From: Bacillota bacterium
GTDB taxonomy: Bacteria > Bacillota > Sulfobacillia > JAUYEG01
NCBI GenBank assembly: GCA_030691505.1
Contig: JAUYEG010000175.1
Coordinates: forward strand, 1-49,544
Direction of reading: 5' to 3'
DNA: 49,544 nt
Both the position numbers and the translations under genes were made by a program. Of the stretch, positions 11,303-49,544 are shown piece by piece. The notes under the pieces were generated by a model. It searched no databases, was not told where the DNA came from, and worked only from the letters and a program-made list of their open reading frames with translations. How positions within the stretch are numbered: the stretch's first letter is position 1; each line of letters starts with the position of its first letter.

Positions 11303-13201
11303 CTGGAAACGATACTGGCGACCGACGTGGGCAGCACGACAACCAAGGCGATCCTGCTCGAGCGCCAGTCCTCCGGCTGGCGGTTGGCCGGCCGCGAGGA
11401 GGCGCCCACGACGGTCGAGTCACCTTACGAGGACGTGACCATCGGCATTGCCCAGGCCGTTGCGCGGCTTGAAACAGTCACCGGCAGAAAGCTGCTCGAC
11501 CAGGGCGAGGTCGTCGCCCCGCGGCGTGGCCCGGTCGGCGCCGACCTGTACATCAGCACCAGCAGCGCCGGCGGCGGACTGCAGATGGTCAGCGCCGGAC
11601 TCGTCTCCCGCTACAGTGCAGGGAGCGCCGAAAGGGCCGCGCTAGGCGCGGGGGCGATCGTCAGCAGGTCGCTGTCCATCCTCGACGCCAGGCTGTCGGC
11701 TGACTCTATCGACCTCCTGAGAAGGTTGCGTCCCGACATCGTCCTGCTGTGCGGCGGCACGGACCAGGGCAACGTGTCAAGCGTGGTCTCATTGGCGGAG
11801 TACCTGGCTGTCGCCGGCCCCGCGCCGCGGCACGGCGGCGGGCGCCTCCCGGTTGTCTATGCCGGCAACTCCGGGGCGCGCGACGAGGTCGAGCGCCTCT
11901 TGGGCGAGCGTTTCGACCTGACCATGGTCGACAACGTCCGCCCGTCGGTCGACGACGAGGTTCTGGAGCCCGCTCGGCGCGAGGTGCACAGGGTTTTTCT
12001 CGAGCACGTGATGTCCCGCGCGCCGGGATACGACCGTCTGCTGCGCTGGTCGGCGCGACGGCTTGAGCCGACCCCGCGCGCAGTCGGCGTGATGATGGAG
12101 ATGTTCGCGCGGGATCACGGCGCGGAGGTGCTGGGGATCGACATCGGCGGCGCCACGACCGACGTCTTCACTGTTCTTCAGGGCCGGTTTACCCGCAGCG
12201 TCAGCGCCAATCTCGGCCTATCTTACAGCGCCGGCAACGTCTTGCAGCGGGCCGGTCTCGACGCCCTGCTGCGCTGGCTGCCATACGCGGCCGATGCCGA
12301 CGCGATACTTGACTCAATTCACAACAAGATGGTCCGGCCGACGACCCTGCCGGAAACGACAGAAGAGCTCATGCTTGAGCACGCGCTGGCCCGCGAGGCG
12401 ATTCGTCTCGCCCTCGCCAGGCACTGGATCGTAGCCCAGATCCCGGACTCCACGCGGAGCGGAGAGACATCAGATCCGGACTGGATGGGCCGGAGGACGG
12501 CCAGGGCTCTCCAGCCGACGACGGTTATTGGCAGCGGCGGCCCGCTGTGCCACGCCCCGCGGCGGGTCCAGGCGGCGTTGATCATGGCGGACTCGGTGGA
12601 GTTGGCGGGTGCGCTCGACCTGTTCGTGGACAGCGTGTTCATGCTGCCGCACCTCGGCGTGCTCGCGGCAAGCCATCCTGATGTGGCCAGGGAGGTTTTC
12701 GAGCGCGACTGCCTCGTGCGCCTGGGGACGCTCTTTGGCGCGCGTCTTCCGCGCTGGGTTCGCGAGGGGCAGGTCGTCGGGAGAGCGGTCGTCCGCGTTG
12801 AGGGCGCGGGAGGTGCAGGAGGCGCGGGAGACCGGGACGGCGCGCCCCCGCTTACCGATCTGGTGCTGCGCGCGGGCGAGATGGTCCTGGTTCCCTTGCG
12901 CGGAGAGCAGTCGGCCCGCGTGGAGATATTCCCGCGGCTGGGCACCGATTTCGGGCGGGGGCCGGGCAAGCTCCAGACCAAAGTCGCCAAGGGCGGGGAG
13001 GCCGGTTTGATCTTTGACCTGCGCGGCAGGCCGATCCGCACTTCCGGAGGTTCCGAGGCTCAGGTCCGGCGTCTCCGCTCGTGGCTTGATGCCGTAGCTG
13101 CCTATCCTGGCTTTGGCCGTGCGCAGCACGGGGACATGGACGGCTCTGCGCGGGGGCCCCTCTCCGCGGGGGCGGCGGGAGGTGGCTCCGGTGGAGCCTA
13201 G
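11303..13201 (+). CDS. glmL: GlmL/MutL-like ASKHA ATPase
   Basis: Actin-like ATPase of the family associated with glutamate mutase (GlmL/MutL). Phosphate motif 1 is ATDVGSTTTKA at the extreme N-terminus and phosphate motif 2 is GIDIGGATTDVFT. A GTG at 11327 would cut off the essential Asp of motif 1, and no ATG, GTG or TTG lies in frame upstream, so I place the start at CTG 11303 (LETILATDVG) behind GGGGGAGGGGGG; CTG 11297 is the alternative. The known role is assembly or repair of a B12 mutase, but no glmS or glmE gene lies nearby. Gly/Ala repeats near residue 500 and at the C-terminus are low complexity. Overlaps the next gene by 11 bases. Confidence 0.8.
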   Translation: METILATDVGSTTTKAILLERQSSGWRLAGREEAPTTVESPYEDVTIGIAQAVARLETVTGRKLLDQGEVVAPRRGPVGADLYISTSSAGGGLQMVSAGLVSRYSAGSAERAALGAGAIVSRSLSILDARLSADSIDLLRRLRPDIVLLCGGTDQGNVSSVVSLAEYLAVAGPAPRHGGGRLPVVYAGNSGARDEVERLLGERFDLTMVDNVRPSVDDEVLEPARREVHRVFLEHVMSRAPGYDRLLRWSARRLEPTPRAVGVMMEMFARDHGAEVLGIDIGGATTDVFTVLQGRFTRSVSANLGLSYSAGNVLQRAGLDALLRWLPYAADADAILDSIHNKMVRPTTLPETTEELMLEHALAREAIRLALARHWIVAQIPDSTRSGETSDPDWMGRRTARALQPTTVIGSGGPLCHAPRRVQAALIMADSVELAGALDLFVDSVFMLPHLGVLAASHPDVAREVFERDCLVRLGTLFGARLPRWVREGQVVGRAVVRVEGAGGAGGAGDRDGAPPLTDLVLRAGEMVLVPLRGEQSARVEIFPRLGTDFGRGPGKLQTKVAKGGEAGLIFDLRGRPIRTSGGSEAQVRRLRSWLDAVAAYPGFGRAQHGDMDGSARGPLSAGAAGGGSGGA

Positions 13202-14756
13202 GTCCGTCGGGCGGGCGGCGTTTGCCGGTGTGCAGTCGGGGGCCCCGGCCGTGGGTGCCCAGCGGGTGCTGCTGCGGGGCAGGCTCGAGGCGGTGCGGCG
13301 CCTGCCGCTGCCCGGCGAGGTATTGGTCGCGGAGGGGCAGACCGTCGATCCCGATACGGTCATCGCCGAGGCTCCCAACGCGCCCGCGCGGCTGCATGTC
13401 ATTGAGCTCACTCAAGCGCTTGGGCGGCAGCTCGATCCCGACGAGGTGCGTTCGGCGCTGGCCAGGGGCCCGGGCGACTTCGTGCGGCGCGGCGAAGTCC
13501 TGGCCCGCGCCCGGGTTGGCTGGATGGACCGCGACTCCCTGGAGGCGCTTTCTCCTGTCGACGGCGTGGTGGAGTTTGTGTCACTTGGGCGGGCCCAGAT
13601 CGTCGTCCGCAGTCAGGCCGAGCAAACCGAGGAACGCGTGTTGCTGCCGGTCGCCTCGCATCTTGGCGTGGAGCCCGCCGAAATGCTGGGCTACGCCGTC
13701 TGCCGGCCCGGCCAGACCGTCGAGGTCGGTGACCTCTTGGCCCGCGTGCCGGGACTCAGCCTGTTGGCCAACGAGTACCGCAGCCCTGTTGCCGGCGTGG
13801 TTGAATCCGTTTCCGCGCTGACCGGGACAATCGCCGTGCTCCAGGACCGTCGCCCGGTGCAGCTGCGGGCTTTCCTATCCGGCCGCGTCGAGCGGATCAT
13901 CCCCGGGTACGGGGCCGTCGTCGCTGCCAGGGGTCACCGGGTGCTTGGCGTGTTGGGCCTGGGGGGCAAGTCCTGGGGCCGCCTGATGGCGATCGGTCTT
14001 GGTCCGGGGGATGCGGTCCGTGCCGGCATGGGTTCAGGCGCGGCCGGGAAGCAGGGGCCCGGCTCGCTTTTGCCGCACCAGGTCAGTTCGGAGCACGCCG
14101 GATGCGTCCTGATCGCTCCCGGCGAGGTCGGGGCGGAGGCGCTGCGCGCCTGCCGAGAACACGCTGTCCGGGGCGTGATTGCGGGCTCGGCGCGCGCTCG
14201 CGCCCTCGGTTCGTTCCTGGGCCGGCCGCTGGCGGCCGAAGTAGTCACCGGTCCCGGCGCCCTGGCCCTGCGTGACCAGCCCGGTCAGGGACGGGGGCTC
14301 GCCGACGAGCCGGGCCTGACTGTGATCTTGACCGAGGGTTTCGGACGGCTGGCGATGGACGACGAGGTTCTGGCGGTGCTGCTCGCGCATGTCGGGCGTG
14401 TCGTGTCCCTTGACGGCCTCACGCAGATCAGGGCTGGTGTCGTCCGTCCCATGGTGCTGCTGCCGGAGGAAGGCGCGGACACTCCGCCGGGCGAACCTGG
14501 GGGCATTGCATCCGGCGAACGCGGGAACCTTCCATCCGGCGAACCCGTAAGGGCAATTCAAGTCCTCGGCGCCGGGTCGCGCGTCCGGATCGTCCGCCAT
14601 CCCTACTTCGGGTTGCGCGGAACCGTCATCAGGCCCCCGGGCGGGCTCGTCCGGCTGGAAACCGAGGTAGAAGCCAGGGTGCTTGAGATACGCCTCGACG
14701 ACGGCCGGATGGTGAAGGTCGCCGAAGCCAACGTGGAACTCCAGGAGGCATTCTGA
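13191..14756 (+). CDS. Unrecognised partner of GlmL: sandwich-hybrid repeats plus KOW-like C-terminus
   Basis: A protein of 521 residues that I cannot name. The N-terminal half contains repeated hammerhead-like turns (SPVDGVVEFVS, SPVAGVVESVS) and PGEVLVAEGQTV, as in biotinyl/lipoyl-type barrel-sandwich hybrids, but without a biotinyl or lipoyl lysine motif. The middle part has alpha/beta segments (GCVLIAPGEVG, LTVILTEGFG). The last 60 residues look like a KOW/SH3 barrel (GSRVRIVRHPYFGLRGTVI). A Gly/Pro/Ser-rich insertion near residues 435-455 is encoded by repeated CATCCGGCGAAC. GTG at 13191 has GGGAGGTGG 8 bases upstream. The tight overlap with glmL suggests the two act together. Confidence 0.75.
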   Translation: MEPRSVGRAAFAGVQSGAPAVGAQRVLLRGRLEAVRRLPLPGEVLVAEGQTVDPDTVIAEAPNAPARLHVIELTQALGRQLDPDEVRSALARGPGDFVRRGEVLARARVGWMDRDSLEALSPVDGVVEFVSLGRAQIVVRSQAEQTEERVLLPVASHLGVEPAEMLGYAVCRPGQTVEVGDLLARVPGLSLLANEYRSPVAGVVESVSALTGTIAVLQDRRPVQLRAFLSGRVERIIPGYGAVVAARGHRVLGVLGLGGKSWGRLMAIGLGPGDAVRAGMGSGAAGKQGPGSLLPHQVSSEHAGCVLIAPGEVGAEALRACREHAVRGVIAGSARARALGSFLGRPLAAEVVTGPGALALRDQPGQGRGLADEPGLTVILTEGFGRLAMDDEVLAVLLAHVGRVVSLDGLTQIRAGVVRPMVLLPEEGADTPPGEPGGIASGERGNLPSGEPVRAIQVLGAGSRVRIVRHPYFGLRGTVIRPPGGLVRLETEVEARVLEIRLDDGRMVKVAEANVELQEAF

Positions 14757-45923: not shown

Positions 45924-45952
45924 TTGCCACGATGGACAGGCTGGCCTATAAT
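45924..45952 (+). promoter_or_regulatory. Near-consensus sigma-A promoter for the four-gene membrane operon
   Basis: TTGCCA at 45924-45929, a 17-base spacer, and a perfect TATAAT at 45947-45952. This is the best promoter match in the window. Transcription would start near 45959, leaving an untranslated leader of about 210 bases. Confidence 0.8.
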
Positions 45953-46167
45953 CCTCTTAAGCGAGATTCGCATCCTGCCGCGCCTTCATTCCACCACACG
46001 CTCCGTCTCGCCGGGACCTCTGTAGCGCACTGTTCACTCTATGAGAGCACTTCTGGGGGTGGTAGCCTCTACGTATCGTTAGCCCGCCGTGCCGGAGTAA
46101 CTTCTATACCGCTGGGGCATGGACCACATTCTGCCCCCGCGGAGATCACGGTTGGAGGTGATTTGGT
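45953..46167 (+). other. Untranslated leader of the membrane operon
   Basis: No gene is visible in the 367 bases between iscU and the first membrane gene beyond the promoter. The leader is AT-richer than the coding regions. GGGGCA (46114-46119) pairs with TGCCCC (46132-46137) across a 12-base loop, 16 bases before the GGAGGTGAT ribosome binding site at 46154-46162. No known riboswitch pattern and no T-run are seen, but its length leaves room for regulation. Confidence 0.5.
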
Positions 46168-46935
46168 TTGCAGTTGATTGCGGGTCGTCTTACCCATCTG
46201 GTGTGGTTTGTGATCTTCACCGCCTCCCTCTCCTTCTACATCAAGCGCGGCCGTCGGATCGCCGAGCTCCCGATCCGCAGAGTTGCAGGATTGGACGCAT
46301 TGGACGAAGCGATCGGGCGTGCAACGGAAATGGGCATGGGTGTTCACTACACCATGGGCCTGCAGGATTTCGAGGCCCAGACCTTCGCTTCGTTTGAGAT
46401 CCTGCGCTATACGGCAGGACTCACCGCCAAGATGGACGTGCCCCTGATCGTCAGCAACTACCGGCCGCAGGTACATCCGGTGACCGAGGAAGTCGTCCGC
46501 GGCGCATATGTCCTGGCCGGGAAGCCCGACGCCTATCAGGCTGACAACGTGCGTTTCCTTTCCGATCAGCAGCTTGCCTATGCCAGCGGTGTGGTCGGCA
46601 TTCTCGAACGGGAACGCATCGCGGCCAACCTCATGTTCGGCAACTTCTACGCCGAGTCCCTGATCTTCGCCGAGGTCGGGCAGAAGATGGGGTGTATTCA
46701 GGTCACCGGCACCGCCAACACGCACCAGCTGCCGTTCTTCACAGCCGTATGTGACTACTGCCTGATCGGTGAGGAGCTGTACGCCGCCGGGGCCTACCTG
46801 TCACGCAACCCGGTTCAGGTCGGCAGCCTGATGGCTCAGGATGTTGGGAAGCTCTTAGCCTTGCTCTTCATCACCGTCGGCACCGTGCTCAGCAGCTTTG
46901 GGCAAAAATGGCTGACCGATCTGGTTAAGAAGTAG
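46168..46935 (+). CDS. Unknown membrane-anchored protein A (TM-soluble-TM)
   Basis: A 255-residue protein I cannot firmly assign (possibly DUF6754-type, by memory only). N-terminal transmembrane helix (about 8-25), a soluble alpha/beta domain of about 190 residues, and a C-terminal helix (about 227-247, KLLALLFITVGTVLSSFG). The soluble domain has GMGVHYTMG, VPLIVSNYRP, MFGNFYAES and a glycine motif TGTANTHQLP. TTG 46168 follows GGAGGTGAT with a 5-base spacer. First of four tightly spaced genes (gaps 27, 34 and 17 bases). Protein C, two genes on, has the same layout and a matching TG-x7-P motif. Confidence 0.75.
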   Translation: MQLIAGRLTHLVWFVIFTASLSFYIKRGRRIAELPIRRVAGLDALDEAIGRATEMGMGVHYTMGLQDFEAQTFASFEILRYTAGLTAKMDVPLIVSNYRPQVHPVTEEVVRGAYVLAGKPDAYQADNVRFLSDQQLAYASGVVGILERERIAANLMFGNFYAESLIFAEVGQKMGCIQVTGTANTHQLPFFTAVCDYCLIGEELYAAGAYLSRNPVQVGSLMAQDVGKLLALLFITVGTVLSSFGQKWLTDLVKK

Positions 46936-46962
46936 CGGCTGGATTTGGGGAGGTGAAAACGG

Positions 46963-47589
46963 TTGTTTCATAAGGAACAGATACCCATACTGATCAGCCT
47001 TACGGCCGGGGCGATCATGATTTTCGATTTCTTTGTAAAACAGGCCACTATCGCGAATATGGCCAGCCAAGCCCTCAAATGGAATATCATTATCGCCGCT
47101 TTCGCCACCGCCCTCGGCGGGGCCAACCTTCTGCGCATCCACAGCCGCCGGATCAGCCGGCGTACCGCGCGCTGGCACTTGAGCGTCCTGCTGGTCGCGT
47201 CGATGGTTATCTACGCTGCGGTTGGGGTCACGCAAGGTCCTCAGGGAGTGAACTACCAGTTCCTGTGGCAAAACCTCTTTAGCCCGCTGAGCGCGACCAT
47301 GTTCTCCCTCAATGCTTTCTTCATCGCCTCGGCCGCGGTGCGGGCCTTCCGCATCAGGACGATCCAGGCAGCGATTCTCATGGTCTGCGCGTTTGCCGTG
47401 ATGATCGGCAACACCGGCGTGGGCGTGGCGCTATGGGACGGCTTTCCGAAATCGGGCCAGTGGGTAATGAACATCGTTAACGTCGCAGGCATGCGGGGCA
47501 TCGTCATCGGTGCCGCACTGGGCGCCATGGGAATCAGCCTACGGGTTATCCTTGGCCTCGAGCGCGGGCACCTGTCGGGCGTCGAGTGA
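46963..47589 (+). CDS. Unknown six-helix membrane protein B
   Basis: A 208-residue integral membrane protein with about six helices (near 7-25, 39-57, 72-90, 105-128, 134-152, 175-196). The last helix is glycine-rich (VIGAALGAMGISLRVI), followed by the short cytoplasmic-type tail LGLERGHLSG. Loops are basic (RIHSRRISRRTAR). No transporter or enzyme signature recognised. TTG 46963 follows GGGGAGGTGAAAA. Size and helix count match protein D at the end of the operon, suggesting A-B and C-D are parallel pairs. Confidence 0.75.
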   Translation: MFHKEQIPILISLTAGAIMIFDFFVKQATIANMASQALKWNIIIAAFATALGGANLLRIHSRRISRRTARWHLSVLLVASMVIYAAVGVTQGPQGVNYQFLWQNLFSPLSATMFSLNAFFIASAAVRAFRIRTIQAAILMVCAFAVMIGNTGVGVALWDGFPKSGQWVMNIVNVAGMRGIVIGAALGAMGISLRVILGLERGHLSGVE

Positions 47590-47623
47590 TGCGATCGCGT
47601 GTATGGGGAGGTGCAGTTAACGC

Positions 47624-48448
47624 ATGAGATTCTTCATCTGGTTTGAGAACCTCGACCGGCGGATTCTCTATCTCCTGGTCGTGGCTACCCTGTTTTACCC
47701 GTTGATGCGGCCGCTCGGATTGCCGGTCGGACTCAGCGAGACGACCCAGGTTGCCTACGACACCATCGAGAGACTCCAGCCGGGGGATATCGCCCTGCTT
47801 TCGCCGTCTTACACGCCGGGCACGATTGCTGAGAACCTGCCGCAGACCGTGGTCTTTGCCCGGCACCTCATGAAGAGAGGCGTGCGCATCGTCGGCGTCG
47901 CAACCCGGCCTGACGCAGCCATGTTCAATGATCAGGTCCTCAAGACCTGGGCGCCCGTCTACGGCTACGAATACGGGCGCGATTACGTCGTGCTGCCCTT
48001 TATGGCCGGCGACGAGTCATACATCATTTCCATGGGCCGGGTACCCTTCAGCGAACTTCACCCGGTGGACTTCTACGGCAATTCCACTGTGGGGACCGTG
48101 GTTGATGACATCAAGACGGTGTACGACATCGATTGCGTCGTCGACATGCTCACCGGAGACTCGCTGACCTGGTATATTAGGCAGCTCAACGCGTCTTTCG
48201 GCACTGTGGTCACCGGCGGCAGCACCGCCGTCGGAGTTCCGGGCCTGATGGTCTACTATGCCTCGGGGCAGCTTTCCGGCCTCTTGGGCGGGCTCAAGGG
48301 GGCGGCCGAGTACGAAGTGCTGGCCAACACGCCGGGCACCGCGGCGTCGGGCATGGATGCCCAGTCGCTGTCCCACCTGCTAATCGTGTTCTTTGTTCTG
48401 ATCGGCAACGTCGCCTATCTGGCTAGGCGAAAAGCAGCCGAGCAGTAG
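47624..48448 (+). CDS. Unknown membrane-anchored protein C (TM-soluble-TM)
   Basis: A 274-residue protein: transmembrane helix near 14-33, a soluble domain of about 200 residues, C-terminal helix (about 251-270). The soluble part has PGDIALLSPSYTPGTIAENLP, MKRGVRIVGVATRPDAAMFN and TGGSTAVGVPGLMVYYASG, which read as alternating strand and helix, Rossmann-like. No catalytic motif recognised. ATG 47624 follows GGGGAGGTG. It resembles protein A in layout and in the TG-x7-P glycine motif near the same place, but overall identity is low by eye. Confidence 0.75.
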   Translation: MRFFIWFENLDRRILYLLVVATLFYPLMRPLGLPVGLSETTQVAYDTIERLQPGDIALLSPSYTPGTIAENLPQTVVFARHLMKRGVRIVGVATRPDAAMFNDQVLKTWAPVYGYEYGRDYVVLPFMAGDESYIISMGRVPFSELHPVDFYGNSTVGTVVDDIKTVYDIDCVVDMLTGDSLTWYIRQLNASFGTVVTGGSTAVGVPGLMVYYASGQLSGLLGGLKGAAEYEVLANTPGTAASGMDAQSLSHLLIVFFVLIGNVAYLARRKAAEQ

Positions 48449-48465
48449 GACGGAGGTGAGATGCG

Positions 48466-49068
48466 TTGAGTACTAACGTAGGAGTCTGGATCGCCGCCAT
48501 CGGCACGCTGGCGTGTTACAGCTACCTGTACAAGGACAACCTGGCGTATCAGATCATGGAACACGTCTTTATCGGCATCTCCGCGGCCCACGCGATGGTC
48601 ATGGGTTATCAAAACATCAAGACCATGGCCTGGGCCCCTATGGTCAAGGGCAATTCGGTCTGGGCCATTTCCATGCTTCTGGGCCTGTTGCTCTACACGC
48701 GCTTCTTTAAGGGCTACGGTTGGCTGAGCCGCTATCCCCTGTCCTTCATGATGGGCATTGGCGGAGGGGTGGCCTTCCGGGGCGCGCTTGACGGCCAGTT
48801 CGTAGCCCAGATCCGCGCCACCATGGTGCCGATCACAAACATCAACCAGTTGCTGCTGTTCATCGGCGTGGTCGGCAGCCTTACGTATTTCCTCTTCGGC
48901 CCCTGGAGCCGGACGGCGATCGCACGTCACGTAAGCACAATTGGTATCTACACAATGATGGGCGCCTTCGGCGCCGCCTACGGCAACACGGTCATGGCCC
49001 GCATGTCGCTGGTCATCGGCCGGCTGCAGTACCTCTTCGGCACGTGGATTCCGATCCTTCCCAAGTAA
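48466..49068 (+). CDS. Unknown six-helix membrane protein D
   Basis: A 200-residue integral membrane protein with about six helices (near 4-22, 28-46, 57-77, 88-106, 124-145, 155-175). The last helix is glycine-rich (MMGAFGAAYGNTVMARM), then SLVIGRLQYLFG, echoing the end of protein B. No known family signature. TTG 48466 follows CGGAGGTGAGATGCG. Last gene of the operon; a 17-bp hairpin starts 5 bases after its stop. Confidence 0.75.
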   Translation: MSTNVGVWIAAIGTLACYSYLYKDNLAYQIMEHVFIGISAAHAMVMGYQNIKTMAWAPMVKGNSVWAISMLLGLLLYTRFFKGYGWLSRYPLSFMMGIGGGVAFRGALDGQFVAQIRATMVPITNINQLLLFIGVVGSLTYFLFGPWSRTAIARHVSTIGIYTMMGAFGAAYGNTVMARMSLVIGRLQYLFGTWIPILPK

Positions 49069-49073
49069 GCCTG

Positions 49074-49111
49074 AGGCACCCCTCCCGGCCTTCGGGCCGG
49101 GAGGGGTGCCT
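49074..49111. terminator. 17-bp perfect hairpin ending the membrane operon
   Basis: Arms 49074-49090 and 49095-49111 pair perfectly around the tetraloop TTCG, a very stable UUCG-type loop. No T-run follows on the plus strand, so it may work in both directions between the operon and the convergent M20 remnant. Confidence 0.75.
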
Positions 49112-49162
49112 GGACGGACTAACGTACCGCTGGACGTCCATCCGTACAGCGCAGCGCCTGTT

Positions 49163-49544
49163 CTACTGTCCGCCTTGGCCCGCAAGGTACGCCCTCGCGA
49201 ACCCGACATACATCGCCGTCGCCACGCCCAGGCAGTCCTCGTCGATGTCAAACTGCGGGTGATGGTTGGGATAGATGATTCCTTTAGCCGGATTGCCCGA
49301 GCCGATGCCGACGACCCGGCACGCGCTCTTGGAAGAAAGAGAAGTCCTCGCTGCCCATCACCGGACCTCGGCGCGGCAGGCCAGCGGCCTCCGGGAGCGA
49401 TTCCCCGAGCTTCCAGCTCAACTCGTGATCGCGGCCCGCGTGCGGGCGACGGAAGCGGTGCGAAGCGCCCTTGCCTTGCAACGGAAGGGCCGCAAGGTAT
49501 CCCGCCCTGCCGCCGGACTCCTCCCGATTCGCTACGATGCCAGG
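49163..49544 (-). pseudogene. Decayed M20D amidohydrolase (hippurate hydrolase-like), C-terminal part
   Basis: Read on the minus strand, three pieces of an M20D peptidase are recognisable. First, lid-domain-like GKGASHRFRRPHAGRD, near the window edge. Second, in the same frame, PVMGSEDFSFFQERVPG, the C-terminal metal-ligand motif. Third, in a different frame, GNPAKGIIYPNHHPQFDID and the normal family end GFARAYLAGQGGQ-stop at 49163. The first two lie far too close, so more than 100 residues are missing, and a frameshift near 49300-49315 separates the second and third. In the undamaged family GSEDF and HHP are one continuous frame. An error in the sequence could explain the frameshift but not the deletion. 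Confidence 0.7.

Follow-up and report, generated by a model that had tools for sequence, protein, structure and literature searches.

The window, as we term the entire 49,544-nucleotide stretch of DNA that was analysed, contains four closely spaced forward-strand genes that form a membrane-protein operon. Gene 1 (46168–46935, TTG start) encodes a 255 aa protein of the DUF6754 family (PF20539; Pfam E-value 1.2e-88). Genes 2 (46963–47589, TTG start, 208 aa) and 4 (48466–49068, TTG start, 200 aa) encode predicted six-TM proteins, and gene 3 (47624–48448, ATG start, 274 aa) encodes a protein with an alpha/beta domain between two TM segments. The intergenic gaps are 27, 34 and 17 bp respectively, and all four genes are preceded by strong Shine–Dalgarno sequences.

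A preliminary description had placed a promoter and a hairpin at the two ends of the operon; both sequences are present, with promoter and terminator functions that are predicted. The sigma-70-like promoter TTGCCA-N17-TATAAT (45924–45952, forward strand), recognized by its match to consensus at 11 of 12 positions, is the sole TTGACA-N17-TATAAT-like site with no more than two mismatches at N17 in the 49.5 kb window, although at least one such match occurs in 25 of 100 shuffled windows, so that the match taken by itself is suggestive only. The perfect 17 bp hairpin with a UUCG loop at the operon end (49074–49111, forward strand) lies in a 71 nt stretch with a folding energy of −48.6 kcal/mol (z −5.9); since it has no U-tract, we only infer that it acts as a terminator. 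Rfam models gave no genuine match in the leader and operon, and the search for a conserved leader upstream of the module found none, yielding a single 12-base match.

Families and predicted topology of the four proteins

The product of gene 1 is a full-length member of DUF6754, scoring 297 bits against a curated cut-off of 27 bits, with residues 6–252 of 255 aligned to positions 9–256 of the 257 in the profile. The Pfam entry concerns a single protein without a function, and no mention of DUF6754 by name was found in a literature search; the four-gene context, the expansion into paralogues and the barrel-sandwich (BSH) partner discussed below are additions of the present analysis. Genes 2, 3 and 4 match no Pfam, NCBIfam, PHROGs or PADLOC model, no characterized transporter or defence family in these libraries matches any of the module proteins, a sequence search of the PDB was likewise negative, and no relatives of known function were found for any of the four. 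The earlier statement that no transporter, enzyme or secretion family is recognizable is borne out, with the amendment that gene 1 belongs to a named family, albeit one without a function. An origin from phages, plasmids or defence systems was considered and rejected, as there was no match to PHROGs or PADLOC, to plasmids (searched with gene 1) or to phages (searched with gene 3 of a Zixibacteria genome); viral contigs searched for the module also gave no match. Neither a Walker motif nor any other ATP-binding motif was noticed among the module proteins.

The TM–soluble–TM plan of genes 1 and 3 and the approximately six hydrophobic segments of genes 2 and 4, both recognized previously in the window proteins, are kept across about 100 homologues of each, and topologies were predicted from average K/R charges over about 100 sequences per family. 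Gene 1 has an average K+R of 5.0 just after TM1, and gene 3 has averages of 2.9 and 3.0 at its two ends, so that the approximately 200 aa alpha/beta domain between the two TM segments of gene 1 is predicted to be cytoplasmic and the alpha/beta domain of gene 3 extracytoplasmic. Gene 2, with positive loops after TM2 and TM4, is predicted to be N-in/C-in, and gene 4, with positive loops after TM1, TM3 and TM5 in a pattern less sharp than that of gene 2, is predicted to be N-out. These assignments suggest opposite topologies within each of the pairs 1/3 and 2/4. AlphaFold models derived from two sequences (the window and the Zixibacteria copy L009) are of low confidence (pLDDT 53 and 47), and Foldseek returned only generic matches with them, from which the fold could not be named.

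Charged residues are nearly invariant at several positions in gene 1 (E36, R40, E43, E152, E158, D185 and E192 in a 244 aa numbering) and gene 3 (D149, E231 and D245); gene 3 also has a GAAEYE...AQS motif ahead of its last TM segment, and gene 2 has conserved arginines at 127, 130, 178, 194 and 201 together with His60. The invariant residues, and the peptidase neighbourhoods described below, would suit a membrane-associated enzyme complex of envelope or peptide turnover (by hydrolysis, transfer or modification) in which the alpha/beta domains are catalytic. We consider such a complex quite unlikely, as searches with Pfam and NCBIfam found no known catalytic signature in the module proteins and the two six-TM partners would be left without explanation.

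Two six-TM subunits of opposite predicted orientation with a soluble barrel-sandwich partner also constitute the gross plan of Rnf/Nqr, and the BSH profile weakly matches NqrA and RnfC_N. An analogous complex for redox chemistry or ion translocation is nevertheless very improbable, and was already disfavoured by the comparison of genes 2 and 4 with the RnfA/E–NqrD/E subunits (PF02508), which gave no Pfam match and hhalign probabilities of 0.15 % and 4.6 %, both below 5 %. Conserved cysteines, which within the membrane hold the 2Fe-2S cluster of Rnf/Nqr, are absent from genes 2–4, the maximum Cys frequency being 0.14 in gene 2 and 0.22 in gene 4. The genome also has separate Rnf genes, which the module does not replace; the two systems are alike in layout alone, with no sequence relation.

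Copy number, gene order and the question of duplication

The genome from which the window derives contains nine gene 1 homologues and ten gene 3 homologues. Within the class to which this genome belongs, gene 1 is found in 24 of 61 genomes, with a maximum of 27 matches per genome; it is found in 25 of 299 genomes across the phylum and in none of 14 control genomes. Among the 107 gene 1 homologues whose surroundings were read, 98 are followed by genes 2, 3 and 4; of the remaining nine, seven are cut off where the stretch that was read ends and two are interrupted or mis-called. All 98 complete copies, which come from two phyla, have the order 1-2-3-4. The second phylum is represented by a Zixibacteria chromosome with five gene 3 homologues, of which L009 is counted among the 98 and the four further copies have the same order. 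Some Zixibacteria gene 1 homologues are extended at the N-terminus, ahead of the DUF6754 match, by 105–260 residues, in which a signal peptide and an Fn3-like segment can be discerned by eye and to which Pfam assigns no name.

The nine gene 1 copies in this genome and the constant order elsewhere place the operon far beyond chance, and the self-contained four-gene membrane unit proposed from the window is real. The survey of neighbourhoods that had been suggested as a check for conserved co-occurrence also makes the hetero-oligomeric membrane complex envisaged there plausible, in that the fixed order suggests that the four proteins probably belong to one complex. A concatenated tree contains old paralogue groups; of 74 copies in multi-copy genomes, just 19 are most closely related to another copy of their own genome, and the copies are therefore mostly ancient paralogues. 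Counts were taken from alignment A3, A1 with its hand-picked neighbours being left out. Gene distances show correlations of 0.49–0.57 among the four genes. We note that distant gene 3 homologues also occur alone, without genes 1, 2 and 4, at L039:7732–8571, L160:6994–7947 and L161:6570–7463 (all minus strand).

The further proposal that the operon arose by an A-B/C-D duplication is not established. Profile–profile comparison of genes 1 and 3 gives a score of 30.1 that none of 40 shuffles reaches (shuffle maximum 29.4), and the motifs before the last TM segment coincide (AQD/AQS), although the hhalign probability is only 17 % and the signal, while collinear, is weak. The AlphaFold models of these two proteins have a similar early helix/strand order and are too shallow and poor to serve as proof. 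A sequence relation between genes 2 and 4 is not supported, their score of 23.5 being equalled or exceeded by one of 40 shuffles and approached by a reversed control (23.05). The TG-x7-P motif previously cited as shared by genes 1 and 3 is indeed found in both window proteins, but it is no family feature, the leading T and G varying freely in gene 3, and it fails as evidence for duplication at the family level. The predicted opposite topologies would fit an inverted-topology pair, for which homology is only a possibility.

Neighbouring hydrolases and the BSH/KOW candidate partner

Immediate same-strand neighbours of dispersed copies of the module encode amide- or peptide-bond hydrolases in 25 of 83 cases, compared with 14 of 233 genes at least four genes away (p 1e-7), with a hydrolase seed list that was partly picked from these neighbours themselves. 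For that reason the separate Pfam count is the fairer test, and in it Amidohydro_3 accounts for 10 of 88 neighbours, compared with 2 of 95 in the comparison set (p 0.011). No hydrolase was detected within two genes of 48 of 82 dispersed copies, and none was recognized beside the Zixibacteria copies. In single-copy genomes a peptidase cluster (M55, S58, C26, M20 and asparaginase) lies beside the module, often upstream, and a DUF4438 protein (L053:3064–3927, plus strand) is conserved in the cluster where it precedes the module. In the window itself, the translations reveal the C-terminal part of an M20 amidohydrolase downstream of the operon and convergent with it (49157–49544, minus strand), running to the contig end; it shares 46 % identity with the M20 C-terminus of L053 (E-value 3.6e-9), and its frame is broken near 49305–49310, through either a frameshift or an assembly error.

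In one genome an FHA domain occurs on a neighbour with two TM segments (tm167 family; L145:10228–11061, minus strand). This domain, the many divergent paralogues and the prediction of domains on both membrane faces are features expected of a membrane receptor or signalling complex, in which the outer domain of gene 3 would sense ligands derived from peptides or the cell wall and gene 1, through its conserved acidic domain in the cytoplasm, would signal to BSH/MutL. Such a role seems unlikely, in that receptors do not usually have two six-TM subunits and kinase, cyclase and response-regulator families are not regularly linked to the module, with two response regulators among 88 neighbours.

Approximately 31 kb upstream of the operon the window encodes a MutL/GlmL-like ASKHA ATPase (11327–13201, plus strand; PF13941, E-value 1.6e-107, 360 bits, above the cut-off), and with it a protein with BSH and KOW domains (13230–14756, plus strand; family match E-value 8.9e-80), of which the ATPase is the usual neighbour. 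The ATPase is a member of the MutL/GlmL family, but it pairs with BSH/KOW, several such pairs adjoin transport genes, and the neighbours read do not indicate a mutase role. Where a genome has a single copy of the module, the ATPase and the BSH/KOW protein lie downstream of it. In the phylum sample, counting strong matches only (E-value below 1e-50), the BSH family is present in 23 of the 25 DUF6754 genomes and in 1 of 274 others. In the class sample it is present in all 24 gene 1 genomes and in 5 of 37 others. The p-values of this co-occurrence ignore shared ancestry. The five class-sample genomes with BSH and no gene 1 include two weak matches and one (L159) in which genes 2–4 are present; because of these genomes, BSH must also have other roles or outlive the module. 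A BSH protein is present in the Zixibacteria genome too, where PF13941 has no match despite five gene 3 copies, and MutL by itself is common (144 of 299 genomes in the phylum). MutL was therefore rejected as a universal partner, being widespread without the module, and its absence from this genome means that it cannot be a universal energizer.

The window's genome contains several further MutL–BSH pairs, some of them adjoining ABC permeases or fused. A fusion is seen in a 1148 aa protein (L147:1312–4758, minus strand), in which the same stretch matches both MutL and the BSH family, and which supports MutL–BSH as a functional pair. Diverged pairs in L144, L148, L156 and L158 adjoin, by eye, MacB-like ABC permease/ATPase genes. 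A small soluble family (s127, 90–170 aa, e.g. L053:14330–14803, plus strand), without a Pfam match, regularly lies between MutL–BSH pairs or immediately ahead of gene 1. Other MutL–BSH pairs adjoin MFS transporters. Pairs beside ABC permeases and MFS transporters, and the stomatin/NfeD-like genes recognized by eye next to the Zixibacteria copies, would be consistent with a complex for envelope assembly or membrane-protein quality control, served by a chaperone-like ASKHA/BSH partner and transporting no small solute. This explanation is hardly probable either, since up to 27 copies and a linkage to hydrolases would be odd for a housekeeping complex.

A candidate transporter

The many divergent copies beside different hydrolases, the two multi-TM subunits and the inner and outer domains are best fitted by a transporter, and we tentatively propose that the module could well be an uncharacterized multi-subunit transporter, for solutes resembling peptides or N-acyl amino acids, with a shared cytoplasmic partner. 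In its favour we count the transporter-like expansion (9 copies here, with a maximum of 27 in a relative) and the conserved arginines of gene 2; against it we count that none of the transporter families searched is related to the module in sequence. Genes 2 and 4 would form the membrane part of a single four-protein complex, in which the alpha/beta domain of gene 1 would face the cytoplasm, and that of gene 3, either different from it or distantly related to it, would face outward. The paralogous copies may be specialized for different solutes, whether peptide-like, N-acyl-amino-acid or D-amino-acid-containing, each copy adjoining a hydrolase that would split its own substrate, and the shared BSH/KOW protein, usually with the MutL-type ASKHA ATPase, may assemble, gate or energize the copies in trans.

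It is rather more doubtful that many such four-protein units, each with two opposed six-TM proteins and inner and outer alpha/beta domains, make up a new class of transporter with BSH/KOW acting in trans, usually alongside the ATPase. To judge from sequence searches and poor fold models, the complex appears to be new, belonging to no known kind, and it may have a distant structural kinship to a known transporter fold. By analogy only, the module resembles modular transporters of the ECF type, which share an energizing unit, in that a genome can have many paralogous membrane units and a soluble partner, possibly common to them, that is encoded elsewhere; it differs in having no ABC ATPase and no sequence relation.

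The module, which amounts to as many as 27 gene sets in one genome and recurs in two phyla, has no function in the searched libraries, and the co-occurrence of BSH provides a concrete candidate partner. If it is a transporter, it would represent a new family and would explain part of the nutrient uptake of uncultured bacteria.
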